64,000 nt of DNA from Gracilaria domingensis (Eukaryota; Rhodophyta; Florideophyceae; Gracilariales; Gracilariaceae): assembly GCA_022539475.1 (NCBI GenBank), contig VCMS01000241.1:1-64000 (forward strand), read 5' to 3'. The notes beneath the pieces were generated by a model, which worked only from the letters and a program-made list of their open reading frames with translations, did no database searches and had not been told where the DNA came from. Both the position numbers and the translations under genes were made by a program. Positions 4,550-62,300 of the stretch are shown piece after piece; position 1 is the stretch's first letter, and the number at the start of each line of letters is the position of its first letter.

Positions 4550-5410
4550 ATGGTGACTGTATCAGGAAAAATGGCAGAGGAACAGAGAGACTTGGCGGAA
4601 ATTTCACCAAATACCTTGTCTAAGTTCATATATGCCAATGGTTACGGTATATTAAGTTCCGTTGATGGAACGTTGAGAAGAGAAGGAGAGTCAATTCCAG
4701 AAGAAGTTGTGAAGTGTATGAAGTTCATTGACGAACGTGTTGGTTTCGGACTTGTCACAGGGGGTGATGTGGGCGACGTGGAGGGGAAAATGGAAGGACT
4801 CGGAGACTATAAGTTTGGTGTCTCGGCGAATCATGGAGCTTTCATGCGTTTCTCTGACGAGAGGGAAATTAAGGGTGCATTCAATGATCACACCCTTGAC
4901 CACACTGTTGACGGACTACTGTTCCTGGCAAGGGATTTGAATAGGAGGCATGGTATTGTGAATGATGATGACAAGGGGTTCGTGGAGACCAGAAGTGATA
5001 GTGGCCTTCCCAATTTCGTGTACAACAAACTGTGGCAGTGGAAAGAAGAAGTGGATTCTGCTATTGGGGACCTGTTGCAGAAGATGGATGCGTTTGTTAT
5101 CTATCCCGGCGATAAAAGTTGCGAAATTGTGGACAAGCGATACACAAAAGGAAGCGGAGGAGAAAATCTTGTGGATAATGAACCGAGATTTATTGATACG
5201 GATGACGTCGTGACGTTCGGAAGTGCTTTGAGCGACGGGCCTTTGCATGAGGTAGGCGTGTACGGCGTTCACGTCAAAGAAGATTGTATCCCGCGTGGAG
5301 TACACAACCTGTTCGAAAGCGTGGAGGATGTACATTCGACAATTATGTTGGTGGCTCTGTTGTACGGCTACGAGGAAAAGCAGCACGATAAAAACCACCA
5401 TGAATCATAG
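4550..5410 (+). CDS. HAD-family phosphatase paralogue lacking the nucleophile (probable pseudoenzyme)
   Basis: A 286-residue protein starting at ATG 4550. It aligns along its length with the opposing gene at 5463-6335. HAD phosphatases use an Asp in D-x-D-G-T as nucleophile; here motif I reads LSSVDGT, so the first Asp is Ser37 while the second (Asp39) remains. Motif II is VTGGDV where the paralogue has ATGRD. The motif III lysine is present in RYTKGSGG, and motif IV reads FGSALSDGP, without the first acidic residue. Overall organisation (motif I at ~35, a cap between motifs II and III) suggests the HAD-IIB group, which includes sucrose- and mannosyl-3-phosphoglycerate phosphatases. The frame is fully open, so it is a coding gene rather than debris; catalytic phosphatase activity is unlikely by known HAD chemistry. 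It ends 52 bp from the stop of its convergent partner. Confidence 0.65.
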   Translation: MVTVSGKMAEEQRDLAEISPNTLSKFIYANGYGILSSVDGTLRREGESIPEEVVKCMKFIDERVGFGLVTGGDVGDVEGKMEGLGDYKFGVSANHGAFMRFSDEREIKGAFNDHTLDHTVDGLLFLARDLNRRHGIVNDDDKGFVETRSDSGLPNFVYNKLWQWKEEVDSAIGDLLQKMDAFVIYPGDKSCEIVDKRYTKGSGGENLVDNEPRFIDTDDVVTFGSALSDGPLHEVGVYGVHVKEDCIPRGVHNLFESVEDVHSTIMLVALLYGYEEKQHDKNHHES

Positions 5411-5462
5411 AACGGTATTGAGATATATACGACACTTTTATTACTGAGATCTCATATCATAG

Positions 5463-6335
5463 CTAAGTATTACAGGCATCGTAGCACTGGAAACAAATTC
5501 CAAGAGCATTTCTAAACCATTGACACTTGCATTTTCTGTACCCGTACAGTTCTGCCACCCTTCTGATGGTCTCATGCACGTCCTCCACCCCATCAACAAG
5601 ATATGTTACCGCTGGTGGAGGGTCGTCTCCCTTCACATGAACTGCGAGGGTTGCCATTTCATATAGAGGACCATCATTGGAAGCATTCCCGAAAGCAACG
5701 ATTAAATGTGTGTCGAACTGGGGGTCGTTTTCAACCAAGGCTAGCGCCCCACTATTTTTCGTGAAACGAATGTCCCCTATGTCACAGTTTTCATCTTGAG
5801 GGTACGCAACCAGGTTCGGAAAGGATGTCAACACTTTTGAAATACCGGAGTTAACTTCTGTTTTCCACTTCGACAGTCCATTGTACGTGAAGTTAGGGAG
5901 TCCACTGTCTTTTCTAGTGCTCACCACTGCTTGTTGACGCTCTTCGTGAAGTCCGTGCGATTCATTTAAGGAGAGTGCAAGTCTCTCAAGTTCGGCTGCA
6001 CATCTTTCGTAACCTTCCCTGTCAAGGTCCTGATCAATTTCGGTACCATTGGATAATCTCACCCGTGCGCCTTGGTTTCCAGAGATGCCAAAAGTGTAGC
6101 CACCCAGGTGCTCCATGAAACTCTCGGCATCCTCTATATCTCGCCCAGTAGCAATTCCGAAACCAACGCGTGCGTTGATGTACTTCATGCATTTGACTGT
6201 TTCGGCAGGAATGTTGTCCCCAGCTCTTTTCAGAGTACCGTCAACATCACTAATCACGGCGTAGCCATTTTCGAATATTTCGTTAGCCAGCTGCTGAGGA
6301 GTTACTTCTTGGGCTCTAACTTCTGAGTTATACAT
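5463..6335 (-). CDS. HAD-IIB-like phosphatase
   Basis: A 290-residue protein from the ATG at 6335; the open frame extends further upstream only from a non-ATG codon. Motif I is ISDVDGTL with nucleophile Asp30 and acid/base Asp32. Motif II is FGIATGRD, followed by a GNQGA segment typical of HAD-IIB enzymes, in which the cap lies between motifs II and III. The motif III lysine is in RFTKNSG. Motif IV reads FGNASNDGPLYEM: Asn stands where GDxxND members have the first Asp, the second is kept. The family hydrolyses sugar phosphates or phosphoglycosides; a mannosylglycerate-type or sucrose-phosphate substrate is possible in an alga but not shown. It is the convergent paralogue of 4550-5410, consistent with an inverted local duplication. 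A 10-bp palindrome TGAGATCTCA lies in the 52-bp shared 3' spacer. Confidence 0.7.
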   Translation of the reverse strand: MYNSEVRAQEVTPQQLANEIFENGYAVISDVDGTLKRAGDNIPAETVKCMKYINARVGFGIATGRDIEDAESFMEHLGGYTFGISGNQGARVRLSNGTEIDQDLDREGYERCAAELERLALSLNESHGLHEERQQAVVSTRKDSGLPNFTYNGLSKWKTEVNSGISKVLTSFPNLVAYPQDENCDIGDIRFTKNSGALALVENDPQFDTHLIVAFGNASNDGPLYEMATLAVHVKGDDPPPAVTYLVDGVEDVHETIRRVAELYGYRKCKCQWFRNALGICFQCYDACNT

Positions 6336-6931
6336 GTTTTGAAAGCTTTCGAAAGGGTTCGTTTTGCAAATGGGTATGGGTATACGAATGAGAAGGATGT
6401 GATTGATGTTCACAAGGTGTTTCGTAGTATACAAAGAGTCTAAGAACGACCATATACGGGTATTGTAGTACTGTTTTAAAACGTTACTAGGAGGAGAAGT
6501 TTTTGCATCGATTTGAAGTAAAGAAAGGATGATTTAGTCATAAATTATATGTACGGGTTGAAGTGGGTAAAGAAAACTGTAAATATCTTTAACATGAGCT
6601 TAGAAATCAAGAAGAGTAAAACAACCTCCATTATGGGTTGAAACCCATAAAAGGTTTACCTTACTTTATACGGGTGCCCCAAGTATTGCAAAGGCTTAGT
6701 TCTTCAGAAATATCACAATTTTTGTACTTGTTTCGTTACTAGTATCGTGCACTTTAATGATATGGAATGACCATTTTCTATCTAGCAAAGTCTTAGCGAA
6801 GTATTAGTGATAAGGGATGTAGGATTTAAAGGGGCATATTTGAACCACAGAAGGAAGAACAATATAAGTAATGTAATAGGAACAGGTCATTTCGATAAAG
6901 TAAATTTTATGTCTAACTATGTCTAAAAGGT
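6336..6931. other. Intergenic region with one perfect 9-bp inverted repeat
   Basis: AT-rich sequence between two minus-strand genes. The only structure seen is a perfect hairpin at 6631-6650, TTATGGGTT and AACCCATAA around a GA loop, which could lie in the 3' UTR of neither or either gene. No coding sequence is supported. Confidence 0.4.
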
Positions 6932-39980: not shown

Positions 39981-40516
39981 CAGACTGTGCCACGTTGCAG
40001 AATTCTGAAGTCACCCTTAGTAATTTTTTTTGGCCGTGATACTAAACCGAAAAAGATTAACGGCATCCGGAGCGGCTACCGAAACCGACTCGTCAGCCGA
40101 CGCCACTGATCGTCATTCCCTGCAACCTGTACCCCCCTCACTGTAGCAATTTGCCCGGTTTTTGCCACCCCTCCAAACAGGGTGAAACGGGTGGGTTCTG
40201 AGTGACAGCTGAACCCACTTACAAATCGCTTGCGCGTGACAACCACAGCGGTAAGAACAAAATTTGTAAGCTATTCTTTTTGTAACAACTCGGTTTTTCA
40301 ATTTCACGCTGAGGATACTAAAACGTTTTCATGAACTTCTGTCCGTAGATTGCAGGTTACTACGAATAGATGTATCTCAAAAATATCAACGAGACTCGTT
40401 TCACCTTCTCCTCTCCCATGGTACACCTTTGCATCACGTCCCGTTAATATTCCGCATACGATTACTGCCAAAGCGTTTCACTACCTACAATCTCTATTAC
40501 TGTGCGAGTATCTACT

Positions 40517-40960
40517 ATGGTTCACATTGGTCATCCGGAAGAGTGTGTTATTTGTTTGGAAAAACTATCTGGAAACGTCGTTCAGCTTGACTGCAAGCAC
40601 GTTTTTCACTACGACTGCATATCACAAATGTTTCCTAACAAACGTGTGCTTCGACAAACAAGATATAGTTTGGTGAGAGGAAGTAACGGTGAGGAAGAAG
40701 TCGAAGTCAACTGCCCTTTGAGTAATTGCTGTCCTAATTGTCGAAAACGCATCGATCCAAAACAAATGAAACAGTGGTTAGATTACGTTAATCGTAAGAA
40801 AAGAAGTCGCCCCGAAGGCGTTTCAGAGGAAGAGTACGAAAAGCGCAAGAAAAAGAACCGAAAGCGAATGGAACGCCGACTAAAGAAAGAAGAAAAGGAG
40901 AGGAAGGAGAAAGAAAGGAACAAAGAGCTTTGTGAAAACGATATTACTGTTATTGAATAG
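40517..40960 (+). CDS. RING-H2 finger protein, putative E3 ubiquitin ligase
   Basis: A 147-residue protein from ATG 40517; an open frame five codons upstream has no ATG. Residues 8-75 form a RING: ECVIC (first C-x2-C), then DCKHVFHYDC (C-x-H-x2-H-x2-C) and CPNC (last C-x2-C), the C3H2C3 order. RING-H2 proteins bring an E2 to substrates for ubiquitination. The interval between the DCKHVFHYDC knuckle and the last pair is long (about 45 residues) and polar. The C-terminal half is an extremely charged Lys/Glu/Arg helix (about residues 90-140) without a membrane segment, so a soluble or nuclear protein is likely. Upstream lies a CCAAT-rich block. Confidence 0.7.
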   Translation: MVHIGHPEECVICLEKLSGNVVQLDCKHVFHYDCISQMFPNKRVLRQTRYSLVRGSNGEEEVEVNCPLSNCCPNCRKRIDPKQMKQWLDYVNRKKRSRPEGVSEEEYEKRKKKNRKRMERRLKKEEKERKEKERNKELCENDITVIE

Positions 40961-41220
40961 AAAACGAGGTCGTATTGAGTTCAAAGCGATTGCTGGAACA
41001 ACACAGGTGCGAACTAGGTACGAGGAAGACTGTCCGTCGAAATGCACAGAAGTTTGCCCGTTGAATGTCAGTAAACCAAAGGGTTTAACCTGTGGCAATA
41101 CATCTTCTCGAGCTTTTAGAGCAGCGATTAACCAGTTTAAGGGATACGTAACGCGTATTGGTCTTTGTAATCCCTAATTGGCCGCTCTTACGACGCCTGC
41201 GGGCACAGCAGCGCGCAAAA

Positions 41221-41439
41221 CTAGATCAGCGTGAGCACGGCCCGCTTGCGCGCGTAACTGTTGACAGCCTGATGTCTTTCGTACAAATGGCTGACGGCGC
41301 GCCGCAGCGATGGCGTTAGCGCCAGGGCGCGCGCCGCGGGGTCTGGGAGTGGCGGCGGCTGTGCGCGGCGCGCTGTAGGTGCGGCGTGCCGTCCCATCGT
41401 ACAGGCGAGCACAAACAGCAGTGCAAGCAGCCCGCGCAT
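41221..41439 (-). CDS. Short ORF with a signal-peptide-like start
   Basis: From ATG 41439, 72 residues: MRGLLALLFVLACTMGRHAA is a good signal peptide, followed by a Pro/Arg/Ala-rich segment and an early stop. It may be the first exon of a secreted protein or a chance frame in GC-rich DNA. Confidence 0.3.
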   Translation of the reverse strand: MRGLLALLFVLACTMGRHAAPTARRAQPPPLPDPAARALALTPSLRRAVSHLYERHQAVNSYARKRAVLTLI

Positions 41440-41681
41440 GGTGGCGGGGTAAGCGGGGCGTTGGACAGAAGCGGCTGCGTGAGTGGATCAAGGGACGGCG
41501 TGCAGCGCGGAATAACGGCAGCGGATCACGGGTAGAAGGTGGGCGGCAAGGTGGTCAGGCCGGCCAGCGCTGCTGCTCAGAGAGCGCGCGCGGCACGTAT
41601 AAATCAGGATGCTCATGTTGTTTAACAGCTCCGCCAGCCTCTGCCACACCCACATCGTCAGCCGCCTCTCGATCTCCGACA

Positions 41682-41763
41682 GCTCCGCGCCCTCCGCGCC
41701 CTCCGCGCCCTCCGCGCCCTCCGCGCCCTCCGCGCCCTCCGCGCCCTCCGCGCCCTCCGCGCC
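41682..41763. repeat. 9-bp minisatellite (CTCCGCGCC)n
   Basis: About nine nearly perfect copies of CTCCGCGCC in a row within GC-rich island 1. It encodes Ser-Ala-Pro repeats on the plus strand, probably meaninglessly. Confidence 0.8.
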
Positions 41764-42219
41764 CTACGCGTCCTACGCTCCCCTGTGCTCGCCCACTCTT
41801 CGTCCTCGGCGTGCTTCGCGCCCGCCCCTCCTTCGTCCTCCCTCTCCGCACAACCGCGCGGCGCGCTCGCACTTACTCCTCGAAGCACTTGCGGCACCAG
41901 ACCTTGCGGCACGCGCTAACGCCAGGGTGGCATCCGGCGCGCGCACGACACCAGCCCCACCTGCTTTGCCGTGCCTGAGCAGATGTGGCAGAAGCGCGAC
42001 AGCAGCTGCGCTTTCCTCACTGCCAGATGCCAGCCGCAGCCGCCGCCGCTGTGCACGCCACCACGGCCACGCTCCGTGCCGGGCGCCGCGCGCACGCGCT
42101 GCATGTGGTCGGCATGCGTTTGCGCCGTGCGAGTAAGCACGGCTCCACCATCGCTTGCTAGCGCGCACGCAGCTGGCCTCAGCCGCGGCGCGACGCGGAG
42201 GCAGCAATGCAGCCACCGG

Positions 42220-44783
42220 TTTGCTATTAGAATCAGCCGTCCTGAGGTATATGGATGCCAATCGTCCCAAACGTGCTGCACGGACGGCTTTACGAGCAGT
42301 CGATTTTTGCCTTTCGGCCGGATATCCGGAGAGTGCGGCTGGCGTACCTGTCCGAGAAATTACGAAGGTGCGACCGGATGTATCGGATACGACGCCCTCG
42401 TTGGTGGATGCCGTGTTAGCCGTACTATGTGCTGTATGTTCTGATGCGTTTGCGCGTCTGAAACATCCGCGTCGAGCGTCGCGATTTGCGTTCTTTGCGG
42501 CAATTCGCTTTGCAGAGTTAAGGTACTTTGCTGCAGCCGCTGCGCCCGCCGAGGCTATTGACGGCTCCGCCTTACAACGCGCAGCTGTTCGACATCATAT
42601 GCATTACTGGATGGGGGAGGGTGCTTTTTCTCAAGGTAATTCTGTGTCGGCGGTTCGACATTTCTCCTCAGTGCTGGTGGAGGCGAAGAAATCGGCTCAG
42701 CCTAATGCGGTAGGGATACACGCTTCCGTTGTGCCGGCGTTTTTGCGAGCGTTGAAGATTGGCGCTGTCCCGAAATTGGCTACGCGATGGGACTCTGGTG
42801 CGGCTTATCCGCTCCTGGATACGGCTTTTTCATTCGCACGCATGATATTGCTGATTGTGATAGAGATTGGTATGCTCTCGAGGATGAGGTGTTGGAAGAC
42901 GCCGAGTTCTTTGAAAAGCTCGCGAATGATGATAGGCGTTTGAAAAGAGAACGACGTATTGAGGCGCTTATTTCTGAGCTTCGCTATGCGAAGCGAAGCG
43001 TTCAAAATGATCCCGGTGGCTCACTTGAGATGAAGATTAGACGAATGAGAGACTTGGCGTACGCCAGAAAACGACGGAAAAGGGCCGCTTCTTTGCTTGA
43101 GCGCGGGGCAGTTCTGGGTGAGGCGGTTCTTCTTCATACGCGATTAAGAAACCCTTTGCAGTTTCCTGTGTTTATCCGTTCGATGTCGGCGGTTGTTTCG
43201 CTTGATTTCAAATGTTACTCTTTGTTTGATAAGAGTAATGATGAAGCTGAGAGTGAACCTCCGCCCGTGCGGCTGTTCGAGGCGCCTTCCTTTACGATTG
43301 CTCCGAACTCGGAAGAGAACGTTGTGCTGAAGATCACCGGACAGAAGGCGGGTGTGTTGCAGTGTATCGGGGTTTGTAGGACTTTTGCTTCTGGCACGAG
43401 CGCTACTTTTGTACCAGACTCCCCCACGGTGTTCGTACCAGGTTTTGCTCTTTTACATCGAAACATGGATGGAAACCAACAACACTGCCTGCCCCAGCTG
43501 TTCCGATGGCAATAAAGCGAGGTAATATGCGCCCTTCCGCCCACAGACTTTGCATCAATGAAACTGCAACTTTTTCCGTGTTCTTGGTCCGTGATCGTAG
43601 TGTGAAAGACGGCTGTGAAGTGAATGATAGGGAAGATGGACTTTCTGTTTCACCTCACATGTGGGAAACGCATGTTGCCGATTTGGAACACAATTCCACT
43701 ACAAAGAACCAAGATAAGGCTTTTGATACAGTAAGGAAAATAACGGTGGAGCCGGAAACGGTTGAAAACTTTGAAAACCAAGATGGTGATACGTGGGATA
43801 GGAAGGCGGTCACACATTTTGTTGTCTGTTCCAAGCACCACTCGCACATTCTTCGGCAAGGAAAGGGACGCGATCGTCCTGATCGGGTGTACGTGACTGT
43901 GGGCTGGCGGACGAACGAAGAGAACGAAGGGGACATTCAGATTCCATCCATTGATCCTCTTAAATGGATGAAAAAGACTAAGATTCAAGAACACGGGAAC
44001 GAGTCTGTGACAGCTTCACAGGATGATATTCCACGAATGAAACAGAACGTAATGCAAGACGTTGTTGAGGGCATTGGGGCTTTGCGTGTCGATGACTACG
44101 AGAAGAATCCTGTGCAAGTGCGTGTTTCGCACCCTGAGAAAGTTAAGCATGACTTCTTTCGACGCACAAATCAAGATGAGCTGGGTTTAGTCAGTGAGCA
44201 GAGTTCCGTAGTCGCGTACCCCGCTGTCGTTCCTGTTGATGTGCTGGTCAAAAACGTTTCCGACGGAGTTTTGGATATTGCATTTGCTGCTCCTACGGAA
44301 GGTGGTGTGGCTGATGGGGAACGTGGGCGGTACTGGACGGGTCATGCATCAATGTCGCTGAGATCAATCGCTCCGGGGGTGGAACGGACAATATGCCTCA
44401 CAGCAGTTTTGATTAGTCCTGGACAGTACAATATGTGCAGGTTCACTATGCTATATCAAAAAAGCAGTTTTGTTCCCAACAGAAGAAGGCAACATATTTC
44501 CGTCAGTCCGTCTTACATGACAGTTGAAGCTGTTGGAGAGTACAAGTTGTGCGAAGATGATATGGCAGAAGAGCAACACGAGACTGCTCCGTTGCGACGC
44601 AGCTCAAGAAGGATAAGCACGGGGTCAAGTGGAATGTCCCTGAACCAAAGCAACCCGAAGAGACTGAGTCCAGGACCAAACGAAGATATAACAACGGGAA
44701 GTAAGCACTCTGAAGAAGACAAGACGTTGGGCCATGGTAGTAGAACGAAGAACGATGAGGTTGACCTCAATCTTAGAAAATGA
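42220..44783 (+). pseudogene. TRAPPC8-like (Trs85) trafficking subunit, truncated and frameshifted
   Basis: Three consecutive plus-strand frames make one protein: 42220-42840 (LLESAVLRYMDANRPKRAAR, then HHMHYWMGEGAFSQGN), 42830-43500 (ALEDEVLEDAEFFEKL, then LLHTRLRNPLQFPVFI) and 43490-44783 (RLCINETATFSVFLV and later beta-rich segments with NVSDGVLDIAFAAP). This order, a helical-repeat region followed by Ig-like beta domains with an R-N-P-L strand, is that of TRAPPC8, a subunit of the TRAPP III complex acting at ER-Golgi/autophagy membranes. The first frame change falls at a T5 run (42829), the second near 43490. The ~1400-residue family's N-terminal half is missing, replaced by GC-rich island 1. 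The frames are long and conserved, so single-base sequence errors are an alternative to pseudogenisation. Confidence 0.5.
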
Positions 44784-45313
44784 GGTGCAGTTACCGAAGC
44801 ATCTAGAGCTTCGGAACGGTCAGGTAGAGGTGGCCAGCGAGAATCGACGCTCCGAGACGTCTCACCGGCAAGATCGGGCAGAGGGACAAGTCGGGAAGGG
44901 AAATCAGCGCAATTACTTTCAGAGCTTAAGAATGACGCCTTTTGGAACGATGCAGACACGGATGAAGACTGACCAAACTTGTGTGAGAGGGGTGGGGTGG
45001 GGTGTGGGGGTGGCGAAATTTGTACATGTATGGTGTTTCTAACTACGCGCAGTATCGTATATCTCGTTAAACTATTAATTCAGACGATAGCTAGATGTAA
45101 ATCATTTACCTTCGGTGCAAAAATGCCGTTCTCATGTAGAGCTGTTTTCGCAACTCTTTCTGAACGATGGAAGTCTGATGTGCGAAATTGTTGAGAATAC
45201 ATATGACGAGCCAAATGCACGTCCCGCAAGTTCACGGCAAAATGATTATCGCACTAGAAAGTTACACCGTCGAGCTTACGTTTGCAGACCAAGGCTGCGC
45301 GCTCGCAGCTTGG
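44784..45313. other. Intergenic, nothing recognised
   Basis: Contains a G-rich tract (GGGGTGGGGTGGGGTG-like, about 44987-45013) with several G runs that could form a quadruplex. No gene is supported. Confidence 0.35.
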
Positions 45314-46135
45314 TCATTGGCCCTTTTTGGACTCGGATGTGTTCCCGCTCTTCGCAGTGGACTTGTATGATTTGGAGTAAAAGCGCAAAAACAATATGAG
45401 GTAAGAAAGATTGGTTGTTCCTGTGACAAGAAGGCCGGGCAAGCCAGTACAGCCTCCCAACGTGATGTAACTCCACGTGAAAGGAATCAACGACGCAAAA
45501 CTGGTGAGAAATTGAATGATTTGCGTAAGAGTGATGAGACGTTTGAAAGGCATTTTCACGCCAGCAAGACTGAAGGCGAAATAAGTATACATGATCACAT
45601 GAACAAAAGTATTGAACCACAACCCATATACACCGATTGTTACACCGTACTACAGCCATCCCCACACAGACAATAATACGCGGGAATGATGCCACACATG
45701 AAGCACGGAGAGCGGTTTGTTTCGTAGCATCAAGATGAAGGTATCGAGCAGTTCGTAAAACTTGCTGAGATAGAACAGATAAAATGTTGCAATAAACGGT
45801 GCTGGAAGGGCGGTCTGCGCGGGCGTGCACACGGTTGCTCTCCATGTCTGAGCATCTAAAACCGACAAGATGGCTCGAGAAACTTGAACATTCATGAAAG
45901 CGGATGCAACGGCCAGAATGAGATTATGCACAATGGCCACATTTCTGACAAACGAAGAGTCGCGAAGGGCGAAACTCTGCGCATGGACAACTCTCAAAAG
46001 GACAAGATACATGCAATGGTGTTCAAAACCAGCCGCAAATCGGACAGAAGTGGGGCGGAGGCGGGGGAGGCAGAACCAATTAGACGCGTTACGAAGTCGA
46101 AGATAGAGGTGGTTCCGCTTGTGGCACTTGTCCAC
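45314..46135 (-). pseudogene. ELO-family fatty-acid elongase with one in-frame TAG
   Basis: In one minus-strand frame: VHNLILAVASAF, FIATFYLFYLSKFYELLDTFIL (the K-x-x-E-x-x-D-T box), LSVLHVWHH (the H-x-x-H-H catalytic histidine box), then WGWL, a TAG at 45650-45652, and after it WFNTFVHVIMYTYFAFS (the N-x-x-x-H-x-x-M-Y box) and a Q-x-x-Q-F helix, ending with a short basic lysine tail (KSYKSTAKS). ELO proteins are ER membrane condensing enzymes of very-long-chain fatty-acid synthesis with about seven membrane helices. The stop replaces a codon between two catalytic boxes where the family commonly has Glu or Gln, a one-base change from GAG or CAG. The N-terminus is weak and no ATG start is in frame, so the start is also lost or misread. 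Confidence 0.65.
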
Positions 46136-46379
46136 CCAGCCTCGAAAGGGCGGTTGATCATATTCAGCAACAAGATGCGATGATTCGAGGCTCGAGAGGT
46201 ACTAGTGGTGAGGCCCTACGCACCGCAGAGCAGCGTGTGTTTATCCGCAAAGGGGGAGGAGCTGCACGGGTGTGGATGGACATGTTGCCGATCTCCTGGC
46301 AGGAGCTTTGTCCCGCAAAATGAAATATGATCATTCTGCATTGACGAGAAACATAACACATCATGATTTGGTGTTAGCG
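46136..46379. other. Short spacer, nothing assigned
   Basis: A plus-strand frame with EALRTAEQRVFIRKGGG is open but unassigned. The sequence is of ordinary composition up to the GC-rich island. Confidence 0.3.
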
Positions 46380-47300
46380 ACGCGGCGGGGGCAGAAGGAA
46401 AAGGTCAGGCGCGGAATAGTGCTCGGGGAGGATGGCGCGCGGCGGAATAGGTGGCGGCAGTCGATGGCGCCGGCGTTGGCGGTGGTAGGTGGAGGTAGGG
46501 GAGTGCGAGGGGTGGGGAAGTGCAAGGGGTGCGGAAGGGGAGACGATCGACAGCAGCACACGAAAAGGGCGCCGATGGCCAGCAGCGTCCGTGCGCGGGG
46601 GCTTTCGCGGCGCGCTACGGGGAGGGAACTGGGTGGGAGGAGGTGTTGCGCCGCTTGCTGGCGCGCGCGCCGCCGGAAATGACTTGACACCGCCTCCCAT
46701 GCGCACACGACGCGGGTGTGGCTTGTGTGGCGGATGCGGCGTGCGCGTGGCCACGCGACGCTGTAAGTGCTCGCAGTTCGCGAGAAAGTGCTTACGTATG
46801 AGTGCCACGCATCGCGTGGGGCACATACGCGTGGTGCCGGGCGTGAAGAAGAGAAACAGCGGCGCGGCAGCAATGCTTGTTACTACTGCGCACGCGCGCG
46901 CGCGCCTCAACCGCCCGTTACACTGCGCGCTGCACAACCCGCGAATCGCGCGCCGCTGCTGCGCAGATCGTTCCCCGCCCGCAGATTCAGCGCACGTTGG
47001 AGCAACCGCGCGGTTGGCGCGCTCGCCACCTATAACGCAACACGAGCCGTTTCCGAGCGCAGCCCGCGACACGTCCCGCATCGAGCACGTGTGCTCGCGT
47101 GGCTGCGGGCCACATCGTACACGACGCGCGGCTTGCGCCGCGCTCGCGCACGTGCGCAGCACGCGCGCGCGCACACGTGCACGGCGAGCTGCAGCCTGGA
47201 GCCCTTGCGTGGGTGGCAGGTGAAGTGCGCGCGATTGCAACCAACAGACGCGCGCGCGCCAGCGCGTGGAAGTCCGCGTAGCTGGCAGCTGCTTCGCGTC
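46380..47300. other. GC-rich island 2
   Basis: A second sharply bounded GC-rich block, full of CGCG runs. On the plus strand RRGCGLCGGCGVRV at 46708-46755 has the C-G-x-C-x2-C start of a CXXC-type finger, followed at 46763 by GTAAGTG, a consensus 5' splice site, and later ACYYC at 46876. Both strands have long open frames because stop codons are rare at this composition; none is called. Shared style with island 1 (cysteine fingers plus GTAAGT) suggests both come from a different, intron-bearing, GC-rich gene class. Confidence 0.4.
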
Positions 47301-48060
47301 TTGGGTGTTGTGCGTCGGGCAATTTGGAATTTGTTGCCTTCCGCTGAGCTCATCAAGTTTTATTGGTTGCATCTCGTAGTGGCTCCCCTTTTGGAGCGGT
47401 GTTATGCCGATGCCAAAGAGTCGATGCGAATCTCGCCGTTCTTCTTTCGCGGCAACCACTGTCTGGTGATCCACCGCTGTGCGCACGCGGCCAGCGCTGC
47501 GCTTCCCGCCGCAGCGCTCCTCGCTCGCTTTCAGCCTTGTTAGCGCTGAGCCATCGTGAGAATCTCTGTCCAACATTTATTTGTTATCCTGCTTGCGTTT
47601 CTGCGCCTCATCATCCTCTACCCATAACAACGCGCTGGGGTCACTCCAGCCGTTGTCCACCGCTCATACGAAAGCAGCATCTCCACGTCGTCCGCCGTTA
47701 CCGTCATGCAGCTTTCCGGAGTCACCATCACCACCTTGCTTCCTCCGCAACGCTTGACGCACATTGTGCTGCTCGATGCCACGCATTCTAACTTGGGCTC
47801 ACCCGCGCCCAGCTTGCACCTTTCGGAGCTTGCGCCGGGCTCCTCCATGTCTTAAACTCGCCACCTTGGTGCCTAGTCAGTTGGCACGCGCAAAAGTCGT
47901 CTGGTTTGCTTGAATCGCTTTGTCCAGCTAAAGTGTTGTGCTTGTTAGCGCCGTCATCACTTTTGATGTCGTCCTTGTCGTTCGAGTGCGGCACTCAACC
48001 AGGGCGTTTCTCCCACGTCTCATTGCGCAGCCCATCATTGTGCTTCTCTCAATTCAATGC
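47301..48060. other. Transition region, no supported gene
   Basis: Moderately GC-rich; open frames on both strands (47363-47791 plus, 47618-47848 minus) lack motifs. Nothing is claimed. Confidence 0.35.
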
Positions 48061-48600
48061 AAGCACAGCCCAGCATTGTAGTTCTCCCAACTAGACGTAG
48101 TCACAGCCCACATCGTATTCTTCCGAACCACATGTAGGCACAGCCCAGCATTTTGATCTACCCAACTAGACACAGGCACAGCCTAGTATCATTGTTTCCA
48201 TTCATGAAATCCAAACCACCATGTGCTTAGGACAGCCAAGCATACGGTATTTTCGATTTCTTAGCCACTGCAACAGGCGCAGCCCGTCGCAACAACATTT
48301 CCGATCTCAACGAACCACAGTATAACGCACTCATACGTACTAGACGTAGGCGCAGCCCAACATCATAGTCCTCCTAACTAAATGTAGGCACAGCCCAGCA
48401 TTGTAGCCTTCCCAACTAGACGTAGTCACAGCCCACATCGTAGTCTTCCAAATCACATGTAGGCACAGCCCAGCATTGTGATCTTCCCAACTAGACACAG
48501 GCACAGCCTAGCATCGTAGTTCCCATCAAAGAAATCTGAAGCACCATCTGCTTAGCCCAGCCAAGCATGTGGTAGCTCAGATTTCTCAGCCACTGCGACA
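48061..48600. repeat. 325-bp-period tandem array built on CACAGCC units
   Basis: Sequence from about 48063 recurs with a 325-bp offset (48063 to 48388, 48101 to 48426). Within each 325-bp unit a ~37-bp subunit repeats: GGCACAGCCCAGCATTGTAG, CCCAACTAGACGTAGT, CACAGCCCACATCGTA and so on. About one and two-thirds large units are present. The CACAGCCCA core also occurs in the 154-bp array at 52005. Confidence 0.7.
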
Positions 48601-48716
48601 GACGAAGTCCACGGCGACAACATTTCCATAAGGAACCCACCAGCAGATCTGTTAGTAGATCAGCTAGTAGCTGCAGCCGATTTAAGGGTGGACGTTGGGG
48701 GCCCTGCGCAGTGCAA

Positions 48717-48746
48717 GCAGCGGCGGCGGCGGCGGCGGCGGCGGCC
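48717..48746. repeat. (GGC)n microsatellite
   Basis: Nine or so GGC triplets in a row. Minus-strand frames through it read poly-alanine and are not considered genes. Confidence 0.8.
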
Positions 48747-49418
48747 ATGCTGGCGGCTTCTGGTGTATGGGAACGGTTTTGGTAATTATTTAGTTATTTT
48801 CCGGAGCAAAACATACAAGCTATTTCTTTGAAACGGAAGTCAACAAATTTTCTCACGTGATGAAAACCTAATTTTTACGTCTCGTCAAAATCAATCTACG
48901 GCCTTAAATTTTCAATCCTGGCCGCGTTCTCCACTCGCGCCCTGCCTGGCTTCGCCCTCGCTCTCTTCCCGCACTACAGTACTATGCGACCGCTTCTTCC
49001 ACCGCTCGCCCGACAGAGTGCGCGCCAGCACTCTGCCAGCACTCTGTCATCTCTAGCTAGCAAGCGTGGACGAAGAGCTAGCAATTCGTCCACGCCTACT
49101 CGGTGTTTAGAGAATCTACAACGTTTCGCCTGTTTCTGGCACTTAGCAATCGAGCATCGTATGCTATCACTTCCAGCTACGGGGTAATATTGTGATGCGC
49201 GATGCGCTCACGAACAAGAGTGCTGCTTTTTCATTAAGTCGGAATTGAATGGAACTTCAGTTTAAGTTACTTCACTGCGTTTATTGCTACCATCAAAAGC
49301 CAGGAATATTTTCGAAGCTTACAATTCCATAGACGTCTATGATGCGTCAAGAGCTTTTTAAAGTTCCAAATAATACTAAGTATCCCCAAAAATGTCCTTC
49401 AGATACAAGTTTGACTTT
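48747..49418. other. Region 3' of the recombinase, no supported gene
   Basis: A short direct pair CTAGCTAGCAAGCGTGGACGA and AGAGCTAGCAATTCGTCCACG near 49040-49095 forms an inverted repeat (CGTGGACGA / TCGTCCACG). It could be the 3' part or end of the Crypton-like element. No gene is supported. Confidence 0.35.
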
Positions 49419-50639
49419 TTATTCGCCCCAAACTTCTCTTTCAAATTCTTGAAAGGCCTTAGGATCGTTAACCCAGTTTGCGCTCTTAGAAATACTTTGA
49501 GCGTGTTGTATCATGTGCGATAAACTATTAAAACGCGGCAACTCTTGTGGCGCATCATTATTGTACGCAGCACAATAGTTCCAATAAGCATTAGGTCCAA
49601 CCATTCCAATTTTTCGCATGATGAACTCATCCATATACCCTAGAGATCTATGCAATTGAACGCATCCTCGTTTTAAGGAATGCCCTGTATAACTGTTCGC
49701 GTCCGCATTTCCAATCCCAATAGAACGCAATCGTTCTCGCATAAAACCTACAAACTTATTAGTAGTTAATGCTCGATCAAACACTAAACGATCTCCCGCT
49801 TTAGTTTGCACTACGTCAGGAAAAAGCGCACCGTCCGCATTTCCCCTCACACTGATCCATGAATACAATGCAACATAGGGGTCCATGTAGACAGAATGAC
49901 ATAAGGCTGTGTTTCCGTCCCAGTCAGATATTTGATAAACACGTTCAACGGTAGAGTTCTTTATGGAACAAGATAATGTTAGTGTTGCTGATTGTCTTCC
50001 AATTGATACATGACTCATTTCCAGCTTAGTGATTTCATCATACCTTAGTCCAAGAAAAAGTCCTAGGACGAATATTGAATGCAGTACGACGTCCATAAGC
50101 TTCACTTCCTTAGACCCAAACCAATATTTCTCTGCGTGGTCGCATACAATATCTGCGGTGATTGGTCTTGCGCATGTTTTCACTCCTCCATACTTCGCAA
50201 GATTAACCCTATACGCTCTTCGAAACTCCTCAAAGTCTGGGTTCTTTGTAAGTGGATTACCCTGAATAACATCTTTTGATTGGTCACAAAACCATGGTCC
50301 CCGGTGCCCGTTTTTTTCGTACATGAGGCGTAGACCTTGGACATAACCCCCAAACGTATCGATCTTCATAGCCGTTTTGGTGTTGTATCTGCAGTGATCT
50401 ACTAAAAAATTCATTACCAGGGTAGGAGAGTGAGCAGAAATTCTGTGCGGGTTGCTCTCATCATGTTCCTTTGCGAACCGCATAAACAAGCGTTGCGATC
50501 TTTCCATATTAGCCAAAGTTGAATCGCTATAGGACTTGTTAACAATATCCGTTATAGATCGCAGTCCTTTAGAAGTCTTGCAACGGCTGTTGGTATCTGT
50601 TGGTTTTGCGGCATCTGGATGAACATTCTGCTTTTTCAT
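49419..50639 (-). CDS. Crypton-type tyrosine recombinase
   Basis: A 406-residue intact frame from ATG 50639. The N-terminal half (about 30-150) is a helical core-binding region (SDSTLANMERSQRLFMRFA). The catalytic half has GLRYDEITKLEM with Arg199, then YTGHSLKRGCVQL with His320 and Lys323, and GPNAYWNYCAAY with Tyr355, the likely nucleophile. Spacing R...H-x-x-R...Y fits tyrosine recombinases, and G-H-S-L-x-R-G is the Crypton/DIRS style. Two canonical residues differ: the Arg three after His is Lys323 (Arg324 is next), and the His/Trp position before Tyr reads Val in GMVGPNAYWNY. Cryptons move by recombinase-mediated insertion of circular DNA. It is divergent from the GCR1_C-like gene at 51001. 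The full-length open frame suggests recent activity or selection. Confidence 0.65.
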   Translation of the reverse strand: MKKQNVHPDAAKPTDTNSRCKTSKGLRSITDIVNKSYSDSTLANMERSQRLFMRFAKEHDESNPHRISAHSPTLVMNFLVDHCRYNTKTAMKIDTFGGYVQGLRLMYEKNGHRGPWFCDQSKDVIQGNPLTKNPDFEEFRRAYRVNLAKYGGVKTCARPITADIVCDHAEKYWFGSKEVKLMDVVLHSIFVLGLFLGLRYDEITKLEMSHVSIGRQSATLTLSCSIKNSTVERVYQISDWDGNTALCHSVYMDPYVALYSWISVRGNADGALFPDVVQTKAGDRLVFDRALTTNKFVGFMRERLRSIGIGNADANSYTGHSLKRGCVQLHRSLGYMDEFIMRKIGMVGPNAYWNYCAAYNNDAPQELPRFNSLSHMIQHAQSISKSANWVNDPKAFQEFEREVWGE

Positions 50640-51000
50640 GCTTCACAGAATGTAAATGTTTGCTTGTACTTTCGGTATAAAGAACAATTACTTGTCTCGA
50701 GATCTTGACGACGACAGTGCTGATTTGAAACAAGTGTACTTCATCGTAAACATTATCATGTAGACAACTGATGCAAACACTGTGAGCATGAGGAAATCTG
50801 TGACAGGTTTACACGGATACACGTTTTACGCTATTGTATGTTTTTGGTTGCTAACGTTGGGTTCATGAACTGCTTGGGAGATTTCTGGAGAGCCCGGAGG
50901 CAAGATACGTTGTTCTCGACGTTCATTTCTCCTAGTAACCTTTCCTTTCTTCTCTGTTCTCTTACGATAAACATTTATAAACGTGGTATACTCAAGCGAT
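50640..51000. promoter_or_regulatory. Divergent intergenic promoter of the two Crypton genes
   Basis: 361 bp separate the two divergent ATGs. TTTATAAACG at about 50973 lies 26 bp before the plus-strand ATG, and GGTATAAAGAAC lies at about 50672. TTATAA is self-complementary, so a box could serve either direction. No repeat or hairpin was seen. Confidence 0.35.
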
Positions 51001-51864
51001 ATGGAACGAAAAGGACCGATTCGGCCCAAACAGGGCGGAGGAACAGGGGTTGGGTTCAAAATGCCACCAAAGATCTATCTTGACGAACCAAGGAAGTTTC
51101 CGCTTATTCTTTCTGACATCAAGCGCTTTCTGGAACACGCAAAGAGCCAAGCAGAACTGCTCTTAATTGAATCCACTGAATGCCAAAGAAGGGCTGTGCA
51201 GAATAAGCTAGATCATCTCAATGTCGTAGAAGAATCTCTGCAGTGGAGAATGTTTGTCTTAAGTCAACGCAAAAACAGTGATCTAAACTGGAATACAACG
51301 GCGATAAGCAGCTGTACCAGAATTCAGAATATGTCAAGAACTCAGCTTCTAAAGACATCGATGCACCAGAGGCGTGATATGGTTCTTAGTACAGAATCGT
51401 TTTACAATGTGCAAGGGGCCTCACATGTGATGAAGACAATTGACAAGCGTATCTCTTCACCGAGTCCTAATGCAGCAGTTTGCGCTCTTCGTATGCCGAT
51501 TACGCAGTTTATTCCGGGTCTGCCAAAGCAAATTGAAGAAGTTGTTCAGTTATGGCGGGGGGGTGATAAGAAACGGTTCTACCCGGTGTATCTTTTTGAC
51601 ACTGTTCTACAGCGCAAGAAGCTAATTCATGGTTATACAGATTGCCGCTGGAGAGAATCTGGGCAGAAGTCTGCATATTACAAGTTCAAGAAGCTTGTAA
51701 CTATAGTTTCCGAAGCCCATGGAGACCTTCCAATCTTCGATGTTAACAATCGAAACTGGAATGAAGCTTTTTTGCTGTTCCACGCGAAGCACGATAGAGA
51801 AAAGCCACTTCCGCTCAGCGCTTTCTTTATGAAAAAACTATATCAGGGTTCTCACTCAAAGTGA
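51001..51864 (+). CDS. GCR1_C-like DNA-binding protein, putative Crypton partner
   Basis: A 287-residue intact frame from ATG 51001 (open six codons further upstream without ATG). The N-terminal half is helical with basic patches (ECQRRAVQNKLDHLN). Residues about 180-240 read IEEVVQLWRGGD ... CRWRESGQKSAYYKFKKL, matching the pattern of the GCR1_C domain: a helix ending W-x-x-G, a spacer, then W-R followed by a (Y/F)-x-x-(R/K)-K-x-I helix. GCR1_C is a DNA-binding domain found in yeast Gcr1 and at the C-terminus of fungal Crypton recombinases. Here it is a separate, divergently transcribed gene next to a Crypton recombinase. Identification by eye is moderate; the alternative is an unrelated basic protein. 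Confidence 0.5.
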   Translation: MERKGPIRPKQGGGTGVGFKMPPKIYLDEPRKFPLILSDIKRFLEHAKSQAELLLIESTECQRRAVQNKLDHLNVVEESLQWRMFVLSQRKNSDLNWNTTAISSCTRIQNMSRTQLLKTSMHQRRDMVLSTESFYNVQGASHVMKTIDKRISSPSPNAAVCALRMPITQFIPGLPKQIEEVVQLWRGGDKKRFYPVYLFDTVLQRKKLIHGYTDCRWRESGQKSAYYKFKKLVTIVSEAHGDLPIFDVNNRNWNEAFLLFHAKHDREKPLPLSAFFMKKLYQGSHSK

Positions 51865-52004
51865 GTATACTCCGTACATTTTCTGAGTATACGTTTTGCT
51901 TTGATCTTAGTAAATGTTTAGAACACAAGAGTCTCTGTTCGTATAAATGCCAAGATCATAACAGTCGTCTTGAGTTGCGTTGCCTGCGGGGTCCAGGCGA
52001 TGGT

Positions 52005-53260
52005 GTACATCCCAAGAATGCAGCTTTATATGGCACAGCCATATCCCGAGCGGCTGCACAGAGTGTAATCACTTGGGAACATCCCACGATTGCACTCATG
52101 TCCGCGGCACAGCCGTGGCAGCAGCTGCCCGGGATTGATGATAAAGCTGCATTCTTGTGCACAGCCCAAGAATGCAGCTTTATATGGCACAGCCATATCC
52201 CGAGCGGCTGCACAGAGTGTAATCACTTGGGAACATCCCACGATTGCACTCATGTTCGCTGCACAGCCGTGGCAGCAGCTGCCCGGGAATGATGATAAAA
52301 CTGCATTCTTGTGCACAGCCCAAGAATGCAGCTTTATATGGCACAGCCATATCCCGAGCGGCTGCACAGAGTGTAATCACTTGGAAACATCCCACGATTG
52401 CACTCATGTTCGCGGCACAGCCGTGGCAGCAGCTGCCCGGGAATGATGATAAAACTGCTTTCTTGTGCACAGCCCAAGAATGCAGCTTTATATAGCACAG
52501 CCATATCCCGAGCGGCTACACAGAGTGTAATCACTTGGGAACATCCCACGATTGCACTCATGTTCGCGGCACAGCCCTGGCAGCAGCTGCCCGGGAATGA
52601 TGATAAAGCTGCATTCTTGTGCACAGCCCAGGAATGCAGCTTTATATGGCACAGCCATATCCCGAGCGGCTGCACAGAGTGTAATCACTTGGAAACATCC
52701 CACGATTGCACTCATGTCCGCGGCACAGCCGTGGCAGCAGCTGCCCGGGAATGATGATAAAACTGCATTCTTGTGCACAGCCCAAGAATGCAGCTTTATA
52801 TAGCACAGCCATATCCCGAGCGGCTACACAGGGTGCTATAACTGGGGAACATCCCACGATTGCACTCATGTTCGCTGCACAGCCCTGGGAGCAGCTGCCC
52901 GGGAATGATGATAAAACTGCATTCTTGTGCACAGCCCAAGAATGCAGCTTTATATAGCACAGCCATATCCCGAGCGGCTACACAGGGTGTAATCACTGGG
53001 GAACATCCCACGATTGCACTCATGTTCGCTGCACAGCCGTGGCAGCAGCTGCCCGGGAATGATGATGAAACTGCATTTTTGTGCACAGCCCAAGAATGCA
53101 GCTTTATATAGCACAGCCATATCCCGAGCGGCTACACAGGGTGTAATTACTGGGGAACATCCCACGATTGCACTCACGTTCGCTGCACAGCCGTGGCAGC
53201 AGCTGAACGCGAATGATTGTGAAGCTTCGTTCTTTTGCAGAGTGTAAGAATGTCGTTTTA
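52005..53260. repeat. 154-bp hairpin-rich satellite, about eight units
   Basis: Eight head-to-tail units at a constant 154-bp step (for example TGCACTCATGTTCGC at 52552, 52860 and so on). Each unit contains nested inverted repeats: ATAAAGCTGCATTCTTG with CAAGAATGCAGCTTTAT (17-bp stem, loop TGCACAGCC), ATATGGC/GCCATAT around ACA, TGGGA/TCCCA around ACA, and GGCAGC/GCTGCC around A. Units 1-7 are very similar; the last degenerates after 53205. All six frames stay partly open, giving repeated peptide frames that are not genes. The array starts 140 bp after the GCR1_C-like gene. Confidence 0.85.
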
Positions 53261-54799
53261 CAATGCAGAACAGTTTCCTTTGAAATAAGAAGGCGTTTAA
53301 GCAGAAGAAATGGTCTAAGTAACACATGTTGAAATTAGTGAGGAACACAATAGGAATGTCGATAAAATGCTCTTTACAATTGTGTTTTAATGATCTATAA
53401 AGAATTAAACTGAGTCCGAAAATCTTTGGAGGTTATGGCAAAGGCAATGTGATTCTTATATAAGTACAGAGAGTATTGGAAATGTTAAAGATTAACTTTG
53501 TAGCTTGAATCGCATATTACAGATTTTGTATAAGTTTACTTGCCAAGAATTAGCAGGTGAGAAACGTGAGTAGTGTTGCACTTTATGTGTGGGTACAGAT
53601 AAGGGTACAGGACTTTGGTTGGTGTTTTGATTTGAAATTTATATTCAAAACTGTACCCAGATCTGAACCTATCTGAGGAAGAGGTCGTTATAAGACTACG
53701 GGCAAACAGGTGATAACGTGAACTAACCGGTACCGTCGGTACCAGTAATTCAGCTCTGTACGTACATACAGAACGCACATCAATATACCATTGAAGGGGA
53801 CAGTGACGTGGAACGCTTTCGCCTGCTTACGACGCGTCATCTGGGTGACGTCAGTGACATGTCATAACGTGTCACAGTGTCGAACCGGGAAATTGCTGTA
53901 CTTGGTCGTGATTACCGTCCAGGTACGAAGGAACCTCTTTTGGCGGGACATCGTTGGCCTGTACGCAACCTTACCAACCTGGTCTTAACCGAGGCCTTGA
54001 TGGCCAGGTTCAAGAGAGAAGCTACACACCGCAGTGCATTACCTAGTTCTGGTCCTGGGACTAATATCGGGCCTAATTCAAGGCATTGGGGCCACATCTT
54101 TGAGGCACCGAAAAGCATACTATTCCGTGGGTGGACCACAATTGCTCCGAGAATCATCTCATTTAGCTGAAATCGAAATCAGCTAGATTTAAAGAATGCC
54201 AATTAAAGGTTTTATTGGAGTAGGCGGAGAAGCTGCAAGTTCATTTTGCAGTCTGCGACTTGTGGTGTAATGAGGTTCTTGTCGTGTACACGCACAGCGG
54301 TGCTCTGAGCGTTTTTCTTCCACAATGAAGACGGCGCGAAAAGAGTTGTGTTTGGAGGGATGCGTCTCTTCGCGCCCCAAAGAAGCCACGACTTTATTGT
54401 CAGATAAAACTTCTATTCCAAACTAGCCCCGTCTCCTTCTCCTATACGCGAGCGCCATTCTAGAAGTAGCCGGAGCGCACAAACCCGTACGTTCTGTGAG
54501 GTCGATGTTGTGCTCGGACGCTGGTGGTCACCTAGCAATGATAGCCACACCCTCTACACTCCTTCCCTCAACTTACCAACGTCCGAAAAAGGGTAGACGC
54601 GAGCGGGGGCGGCGCGGCGAAGGCGGTCTGCGTAACTTCAAATACGGGTCGGGCGGCAATGCGCGACAGAGGCCACCTGCGTAGTTGCAGTAGGAGGCGT
54701 GGGCGACAATGCGCCGCGGATGCAGGCATCGTAGCTGCAGTAGCAATCGGGGCGTAAATGTGCGCTAGAGAGGACGACCATTGCTTCAAAGCAGGCAGT
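53261..54799. other. No supported gene
   Basis: Short frames only. A plus-strand frame at 53877-54170 (97 codons, with REIAVLGRDYRPG and RHWGHIFEAP) is open but starts and ends without motifs. Nothing else is recognised. Confidence 0.35.
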
Positions 54800-59380: not shown

Positions 59381-62300
59381 ATGAATATTTTCTGTGAAGA
59401 TGATACGAGGCCGTACCTCACTGGCACAAGCGCGTGTCTGAAAAACATAAGGGCCACTTCACGCTTTCTTCTTACCATAGAAACATCGTTAACATACCCA
59501 GATATGCGGAAGGGAGGAAAGAGGGACAGTTGGGAAATATTTACGTGCGGGAAGACATTGACTCAGCTAACAGAAGATGCTCACAAGAACCCTACGAACG
59601 ATAACTCCATTCTCGAAATTCCGGTTTTGAATAGACATAAAACAAGATATAGACCTGTGGAAAACCTATCGGAGCCAGACGGCATTCAACCACCAGTAAA
59701 CGACGGAATCCAGTCCCAACATGATGAAGATTCGGATAGTGAGAGCAGTCGCATCAGATTTCGATGTAGACGTGAACCTCCCAGATTTAGTTCAACGCTC
59801 ACCCCTACCAGTAGACTGTTTTGTTTCTTATCATTGCATAATGGCATCTCAAGAACCCAGAGAAGGAATTGGTGAGATCAGTCGAAATGAGTTTCAACAA
59901 GCTGATGATAGTATCCGTGCCTCGTCATTGGGGGTCTCACAGCATTCATACTCGTACGAATGGTATCAATTCGAGTCGTTCTCAGTCGAAGTAACAAAGA
60001 AACAGCAGGAATACGAGCGTTTGGCGACATTCATATACAATGCTGAGGTATCCAGTGTCTCCCAGAGAGCCATTAAGAGACTGATTCGCGTATCACCACT
60101 TGATTCCTTATTCTCTCACAGGACACTCATATCATATGCAATCGAAAGGTCCCGTTTGAAGAAGTCATAGTGAGAATGTGTGTTAATGGCCATGCATCTC
60201 AGGCTGGGAAGCTACGATCGGCCTCCCATTGTCCGATTTGTAGATTGGACATGTCGAAAAGCAGTAAGAGATTCTGGTTCTTGAAACCATCTTTGGGTTT
60301 CACAGCATGCTGTCGCGCACAGGAGTCGTTCGAGGCAATGATGGGTGGATGTGTAAGAGCAAAAGACTCGTTGAGCGTAGATCGGTCAGAGGCTAGCCAG
60401 CACGACTATTACTACGGCGATATGTTTGTGAGACTGCACGGAGAACGTCTGCAGCAGTGGACACCTGAGAGCGATCACCTTTACATCTTCGTTACACTTT
60501 CCTCGGATGGCTCTGAGTGCGCAAAGAACAGAAGAGGAGATCCAATTTCATCCTGGCCCGTCGTATGTACTATATTCAATTATAGTCCTCAACAACGAAG
60601 GAAGGCTTCCAACTGCATTATCAATGCAGTGATTCGATCAAAACATGACGCGGAGTATTTTGACACCTTCATAAGTGTTCTAATACCCGATTTGAAGCAG
60701 TTGGAGGAGGGCTGTTTGGTCCCGTGTTATGATGGAAAAATCCGAAAGCTACACGTCTTTGGACGAATATTCTTTCGGTTTTGTTTGAAACAGCGTGTGT
60801 TTTTGAAGGAATGTCGATTGCTATGCGCAATACCGGAAAATCTGTCGCTTCTGTTGCAGTCTTTAACCTCCAAGAACAACTTCGACCTCGGAGACGTCAT
60901 CAGATTGGAGTGTAAACAAATGAGGGAAGCGTCTGATATTGAATCAGCTTGGAGAAAGTTGAAGTCAAAGAGAAGTAACGATTCAGCAAAGCGAGAAGTA
61001 GTGAAGTCCACAGGTATCAAAATCATCTTGTTCTTCTCAGCTCTCCTTAAATTTGGTCTACTCATTCCCGTATGATGTCATGCATTTAGTTCTTCTCGGT
61101 TGGGCAAAGCATATTTTTAAACTTATCACAAAATCCCACGCACGACATCATGCGCTCGAAAATCTCCCACCGTATTTCATACCTTTCCAAACACTTGAGA
61201 AGATTATCAGAGCTCTAGACAGATTTGTACATGGCATTCCAAGCTCATGGGGACGAGCACCCCTTTCACTCGAGAACCTGTTGAGATTCAAGGCCGAAGA
61301 TATCAAACGACACTGCGAGTTGTACTTGTTTCCTTTCTTCCATCGATACCGTGTTTCGAAATCAATTATGGATCTTTGGAACCAGACGCGATACTTGATT
61401 ACTCTATGCTTTGGTTGTCAATGTGATGATATGACGGGGAAAAATCTTGAGGCCGTGACTGAGAATTGCTACGCCAGGTTTGTGAAACTGTGCTACATAG
61501 ATCGTTTTTCGTCGTACTGTCTCATGCCAAGCACACACACGATATTGCACTTGCCAAGACTATTACGAGAATGCGGACCGCTTTCCAGTTCATCTTAGTT
61601 TCTTGTGGAAAGATTGTTAGGAGAAATCGGAAAACGAGTTCAGCAGACGTCGAAAATATCCTCCCACATCTTCCAAAAGAACTTCAATTGTTTCCGCTTC
61701 AACTGGCAAATAAAGAAACGTCATTTGGCGAAACAAAAGAAGCAGGACACGAGTCGTTCACATTTACGACGCAGCTGAGCGATGTTTCAATAAAGACAGA
61801 ACTATAGTCCGGAATTCAATGTCGTGGGGTGCGAATGGCTCTTGGAAGTCCCATTAAGAAGCAGTATCAAGCGGTGAGGAAGTTTGTGGAGCATAATCTT
61901 TACGGAGAGACAGAAACGTATGAGATTTTGTGCATCACGGAGTTCAACTCTGCAATTGTAGTCAAGGATTGCCGTGAATTAAAAATTGAGAGCATTCGGT
62001 TTCACGCAAACCGAGGATTGAACTCTCAAAACCACGACAGACAGCGGTACTGCGTAGCGGCGCATTTTTTTCCAGAAACTTCATCCAATTACACGATATC
62101 AAACAGATCTCAAGATGAACATCTTGTGCATTTGTACTATGGCTGCATCAAGAACATCATTGCAGATTCCAAAAAAGTCAAACACATGAAGGTCAAGGCG
62201 GGTTTTGTAGATATCGGCTGGCAGTTCAATATGGTGGCAGATCTTAACTTTGACATAGTGTACATCGACAAAACAGATCCTGGACAGATGACCACTAAGC

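Follow-up and report, generated by a model that had tools for sequence, protein, structure and literature searches.

A stretch of 64,000 nucleotides from the red alga Gracilaria domingensis (assembly GCA_022539475.1, contig VCMS01000241.1, positions 1 to 64,000 of the forward strand), referred to here as the window, carries a transposable element that occupies positions 40114..53792 and is 13,679 bp long, including the CATT found at both of its ends. The element is probably a DNA transposon that integrates in the manner of a Crypton by means of a Cre-like recombinase, with a DNA-binding partner encoded by a separate gene and, in part of the family, a gene for a RING protein. The best reading is thus of a Crypton-like transposon in which the DNA-binding function lies in a gene of its own, making it an unusual relative of the Cryptons. 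An earlier note on this DNA had proposed a two-gene Crypton at 49419..51864; that interval does cover the recombinase and its partner, but the mobile unit is the 13.7-kb element around them, which the note missed together with the RING gene, the captured host DNA, and the five loci where the two genes lie on the same strand.

Ends, copies and empty site of the element

The left end was located by searching the 78-Mb genome of the same alga with window positions 40000-49419. The matches at four other loci (designated C49, C18, C26 and C23) all start at window position 40114, and in these and the window the first 70 bp on the element side of the junction are identical, whereas the 70 bp outside appear unrelated; the left end is common to five loci with differing flanks. 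A more divergent copy, at C251, starts at the base homologous to window position 40114, and the conserved left tip (40114..40240, plus strand) is 76% identical at C251 and at C414. At the other end, the C49 and C23 copies share approximately 230 bp past the point where the window copy first diverges from them, and close with CAATATACCATTGA. The window copy is without approximately 205 bp that precede the tip at C49 and C23, including a 121-bp palindrome, and keeps only the last bases of the tip (53773..53792, plus strand). Right tips of the same kind are found at C26, C251 and C8, whereas the C18 copy stops short of the right tip.

All six left ends (window, C49, C23, C26, C18 and C251) begin with CATT, and five of six right ends (window, C49, C23, C251 and C8) close with it, the lone exception being C26 with CAGT. 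In the window, this 4-bp terminal direct repeat is found at 40114..40117 and 53789..53792, both on the plus strand. There are no terminal inverted repeats, as none of the 11 inverted repeats of at least 25 bp in the element joins the ends. The window element is inserted into a member of another repeat family, and unoccupied members of that family at C337, C42, C260 and C98 align straight over the junction. Because the paralogous empty site at C337 has a single CATT, as compared to two in the element, insertion adds the element and one CATT. The corresponding bases are AATT at C42, and AAGT at both C260 and C98. Since unrelated sites have these four bases in common, CATT looks like a sequence-specific crossover core rather than a random target duplication. 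The CATT ends and the empty site fit the account of short terminal direct repeats in Cryptons given in the available portion of Kojima and Jurka 2011 (PMC3212892).

The right-end palindrome of the C49 copy folds at -76.5 kcal/mol (z -21.65). Its centre reads GAA at C49:165062-165182 and TTC at C23:258240-258360, as if it could be flipped. Isolated 33-bp matches to the right tip (97%) are present at C238:53570, C207:55963, C144:182826 and C17:203075, and perhaps belong to other elements with this end. The element at C8 (C8:230000-239900 and C8:217850) has the appearance of a mosaic: its left end and cargo are approximately 87-88% like the window family or the C65 locus discussed below, and its recombinase and partner pieces, which are on the same strand, are approximately 47-58% and 26-47% identical, respectively, as might result from an exchange of the recombinase module.

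The recombinase and its divergently transcribed partner

The recombinase gene (49419..50639, minus strand) is an uninterrupted frame for a tyrosine recombinase of 406 residues. Facing away from it on the plus strand is the open reading frame (ORF) of the partner (50983-51864), which opens at a GTG codon and is also uninterrupted. The partner most likely starts at the ATG at 51001, yielding a product of 287 residues (51001..51864), because all 10 aligned members have MER at that point, with a Q-G-G-G-like motif after it, the alignment rows having been cut at this start beforehand. The predicted protein combines an N-terminal MER...QGGGTGxG motif with a C-terminal tryptophan-pattern domain, GCR1_C-like in pattern but unconfirmed as such. 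The earlier note was correct in placing the two intact frames 361 bp apart, a distance that corresponds to the spacer between the two ATG codons (50640..51000).

The region of the pair is found again at C49, C23, C26 and C18 at 97-99% DNA identity, and this recurrence argues that the divergent pair is more than a chance arrangement. Both frames are open at C49 and both are interrupted at C26. At C18 the recombinase is open and the partner gene is split into halves approximately 12 kb apart, whereas at C23 the partner is open and the recombinase interrupted. The C251 element also has a divergent pair, with 71% DNA identity across the recombinase.

Searching the genome at the protein level yielded 36 partner, 59 recombinase and 23 RING matches, corresponding to 34, 37 and 23 loci. 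These counts are lower bounds, since only the best candidates were given a score, and many of the loci are close copies and so not independent. Of the 34 partner loci, 28 have a recombinase no more than 6 kb away, as compared to 0.19 expected under random placement; co-occurrence in several copies with common outer ends is what the earlier note had named as support for its reading. Twenty-three of the 28 pairs are divergent, five have the partner upstream on the strand of the recombinase, and none is convergent. Six partner loci have no recombinase within 6 kb, among them the more distant half of the partner gene split at C18, and no partner is found within that distance of nine of the 37 recombinase loci.

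Comparison of the window and C251 elements points to conservation of the recombinase, partner and RING genes at the protein level, in spite of saturation at synonymous sites. The nonsynonymous divergence (Ka) is 0.197 for the recombinase, 0.379 for the partner and 0.242 for the RING gene, and differences by codon position number 66/48/223 in the recombinase and 100/71/158 in the partner. A captured host gene fragment compared between the window and C65 (the TRAPP-like piece described below) has a flatter pattern, with 18/21/40 and 18/21/28. Within the young family, Ka/Ks ranges from 0.10 to 0.73, with counts too small to be informative.

Structures were predicted from shallow alignments of 10 partner and 7 recombinase sequences, the latter drawn from 7 of the 37 recombinase loci. 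The recombinase model resembles Cre, and presents the tyrosine recombinase fold that is characteristic of CryptonF, in both respects at low model confidence. Candidate catalytic residues, assigned by pattern only, are R199, K227, H320, K323/R324 and Y352/Y355/Y359; R199 is missing in two of the seven members and H320 in one. The recombinases at C51 and C35 are without the box-I arginine (LGLQYDE and LGVSYDE) in frames that are nonetheless open, and the C51-type recombinase is represented by several loci with nearly equal score. Weak matches to DUF6708 in three of the seven members (best E 0.0081, below cut-off) were taken as chance, and the only NCBIfam match was at chance level.

The nature of the partner is less clear, and two readings compete. 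Background given by the earlier note, that fungal Cryptons carry GCR1_C on the recombinase protein itself, agrees with the available text of PMC3212892, in which CryptonF encodes both in one protein. The tryptophan pattern that the note had described (W-x-x-G ... W-R ... Y-x-x-K-K) is upheld in part: the C-terminal domain of six sequences has invariant W15, G18, R35, Y42, W47, G51 and K53, which include both tryptophans and the first glycine, but an arginine follows the second tryptophan in three of the six only, and the K-K pair is present in four.

With a likelihood a little short of even, the partner may be an unrelated DNA-binding accessory protein, analogous to TNPA of En/Spm elements, with its GCR1_C likeness reflecting convergence on a short tryptophan pattern. 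This would be consistent with the results of profile searches: no match to GCR1_C in Pfam at E <= 10 was found for the window partner, for the 10 partner members (7 of which have the whole domain, 3 of those being near-identical), or for the domain consensus, although HMMER filters may hide weak matches. The iterated motifs of the elements also differ between groups (GCACAGCCC versus GCACCGCCC), which likewise speaks for this reading. However, binding by the partner is putative, the motif difference could represent satellite drift, and the C8 element departs from the layout.

A somewhat less favoured possibility is that the partner is a true GCR1_C protein, and the element a CryptonF whose recombinase-GCR1_C protein has been split into two genes, or that represents a state preceding the fusion. 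The W..G...W...(K/R)(K/R) pattern of the C-terminal domain, the Crypton-type short terminal direct repeats, and the occurrence of both domains in CryptonF are suggestive of such a relationship, as is the order of helices in the low-confidence model, which matches the GCR1_C layout. The model itself, with a pLDDT of 46.5, is too poor for use, and against this reading stand the empty profile searches and searches of PDB sequences with the recombinase and the partner, as single sequences and as profiles, which gave chance-level matches only. Pfam matched three unrelated families among the 10 partner members, each in one member (best E 0.026). A search of the genome with PF12550 was empty, as were its controls, and it carries no weight either way. 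The two-gene Crypton of the earlier note survives as regards the split pair, the common outer ends and the Crypton-type short repeat, whereas its GCR1_C label for the partner is tentative.

The RING gene, captured host DNA and repeat arrays

A third gene (40517..40960, plus strand) encodes a RING-finger protein of 147 residues from its ATG, identified by a Pfam match to zf-RING_11 (E 2.2e-8, on ORF 40502-40957); the protein is 66% identical at C251. Sixteen of the 23 RING loci are within 20 kb of a recombinase, as compared to 0.44 expected. A RING match accompanies 16 of the 28 recombinase-partner pairs and is not found within 20 kb of the other 12, suggesting that RING belongs to part of the family only, as far as a query with the window RING protein shows. 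Members of this RING family with no recombinase match within 20 kb are found at C414:34698-35565, C12 (two), C37, C227, C69 and C31:257900, and the C414 locus also carries the left tip of the element. The recombinase, partner and RING genes are present twice at C29:76194-88101, as two sets with equal scores lying 7,964 bp apart, possibly through tandem duplication.

Between the RING gene and the repeat array is a captured segment of host DNA (42200..46379) that is broken in the window and 93-96% identical to C65:82531-87522. It corresponds to a TRAPP-subunit-like fragment (42155-44783, plus strand) spread over three frames, and a truncated ELO elongase (45653-46135, minus strand). At the C65 locus, both frames are open: the TRAPP-like frame has 1,234 codons and a weak match to the TPPC8 C-terminal family (E 3.7e-5, below the Pfam cut-off), and the ELO elongase frame has 297 codons (E 1.1e-53). 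Approximately 790 bp of the C65 sequence are missing at the same place in the C49, window, C18 and C26 copies, and therefore capture preceded spread. The segment has no match at C251. A piece of the C251 element (L014:6600-9800) contains a 565-bp match, at 85%, to C1:118846-119410, and is a candidate for other cargo.

The motif GCACAGCC occurs 32 times in the window, as compared to 1.64 expected, and 31 of these lie within the element, for the most part in two tandem arrays. The first consists of 38-bp repeats on the plus strand (48028..48520) in two stretches (48028-48183 and 48339-48520), and the second of 7.9 copies of a 154-bp unit (52003..53217, plus strand), in which some of the motifs are within palindromes. 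A unit related to the 154-bp repeat is present five times, at a spacing of approximately 1.44 kb, at C26:28647-34667, towards the right end of that copy. In other cases the motif is a different one: 9.9-kb stretches at C31, C249, C221 and C9 hold GCACCGCCC instead (23, 11, 4 and 5 occurrences, respectively), a motif that the window, C49 and C251 elements and C8 all lack. The groups referred to here are defined by likeness only. At C31 and C249 the motif cores lie within near-perfect palindromes; of 10 arm positions, a mean of 8.3 and 7.1 are paired at these loci, as compared to 2.2 in control DNA. The values are moderate at C9 (5.4), C221 (4.6), the window element (4.2) and C251 (3.9), and weak at C8 (3.1). 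This result was not used for the mechanism proposed below.

Elsewhere in the window, an ORF at 60170-61072 weakly matches Transposase_21 (tnp2; E 5.4e-5, which does not reach the Pfam cut-off), and two convergent ORFs at 4550-6434 match the HAD-like Hydrolase_3 family (E 4.3e-5 and 4.8e-13) and are probably host genes. Rfam and tRNA scans of the window found nothing, and ARAGORN did not find the tRNA-like unit that a 227-bp repeat of L016 had been suspected to contain.

Proposed mechanism and relation to known systems

If the element is indeed a Crypton-like transposon, it would be excised, probably as a circle carrying one CATT, and the recombinase would join the CATT-centred junction of the excised form to a CATT in the genome, so that each end bears CATT and no further duplication arises. 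DNA binding beyond the core site would be provided by the separate partner rather than by a domain fused to the recombinase. The partner, which in most cases is transcribed from the common spacer in the direction opposite to the recombinase, may bind the GCACAGCC (or GCACCGCCC) arrays and help to assemble or regulate recombination; it possibly also controls the spacer promoter. The RING protein, in those elements that encode it (the window element included), is probably a ubiquitin ligase that acts on element or host proteins and adjusts their levels. Captured host DNA is carried along as a passenger.

A more elaborate reading would see a distinct group of tyrosine recombinase transposons that function through separate proteins: a recombinase, a partner that binds iterated sites and reads group-specific GGC-N3-GCC sequences, and often a RING ubiquitin ligase, with the right-end palindrome involved in excision or replication. 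Such a multi-protein, ubiquitin-tuned system would also be able to capture host DNA and spread it. This reading is doubtful, and is rated lower because 12 of the 28 pairs have no RING match nearby.

Should the Crypton-like reading be correct, an independent gene can supply the DNA-binding module of CryptonF or something that takes its functional place, which bears on how tyrosine recombinase transposons gain and lose domains and on the origin of host regulators such as Gcr1 and Cbf2. A conserved RING protein would be tied to tyrosine recombinase transposition in part of the family, and the element would provide a eukaryotic example in which the ends are exact, an empty site is known and the capture of host DNA can be traced. 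Direct tests are possible for the CATT junction, the motif arrays and both arrangements of the pair. Among the titles and abstracts listed by a literature search that lacked most subscription journals, none dealt with a Crypton that is split or carries a RING gene.

Other classes of element fare worse. Starships, as described in the available part of PMC12134995, are mobilised by a recombinase, carry cargo and have direct repeats, and a Starship-like element with a captain recombinase would account for the tyrosine recombinase-like model, the 13.7-kb size and the host DNA at 42200-46379 that matches the C65 locus. That identity is improbable: Pfam searches of seven recombinase members gave no match to DUF3435 at E <= 10 (HMMER filters may hide weak ones), the element is smaller, the recombinase is not outermost, as it has a gene to each side and lies 9.3 kb from the left end of the element and 3.2 kb from its right end, and the cargo consists of broken gene pieces. 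An integrated virus or virus-like element with a tyrosine recombinase integrase might possess several genes and a terminal palindrome, but is most unlikely here, as no capsid, polymerase or packaging family was found in eight element ORFs scanned and no relative of the recombinase or of the partner turned up in pattern-based scans of viral contigs. Least credible of all is a Helitron-type rolling-circle element, for although a 3' hairpin, gene capture and the lack of a target duplication would recall the strong hairpin beside the right end and the captured DNA, Helitrons have TC...CTRR ends and insert between A and T, whereas this element has CATT...CATT ends and is inserted at CATT, and the eight ORFs scanned gave no Rep or helicase match.

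There would be a functional parallel in the TNPA-TNPD system of En/Spm elements, where TNPA binds subterminal repeats, in that a separate DNA-binding protein would act on many short internal motifs. The parallel does not extend to the enzyme, since En/Spm (CACTA) elements have a DDE transposase, terminal inverted repeats and a 3-bp target duplication, as opposed to a recombinase and a CATT core. Giant EnSpm elements are known from red algae, according to the 2025 Bostrychia genome paper as cited in the available part of PMC12477816.

The closer comparisons are with the Cryptons, as far as the available text of PMC3212892 describes them. CryptonS elements of oomycetes and a diatom likewise combine a recombinase with, in some elements, a separately encoded accessory protein, but that protein is a C48 (Ulp1-type) peptidase rather than a RING protein, and most have TATGG rather than CATT termini. 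CryptonF elements of fungi and oomycetes have 4-6 bp terminal direct repeats and no terminal inverted repeats, and share with the Gracilaria element these features, a tyrosine recombinase as the enzyme, and an associated DNA-binding or DNA-binding-like domain. The Gracilaria element differs from CryptonF in that the recombinase and the second domain are two genes, which occupy opposite strands in the window element and at C49 and C251 but a common strand at five loci; in the unproven GCR1_C identity of that domain; and in the RING gene of part of the family, the 13.7-kb length with its host DNA, the motif arrays and the right-end palindrome.
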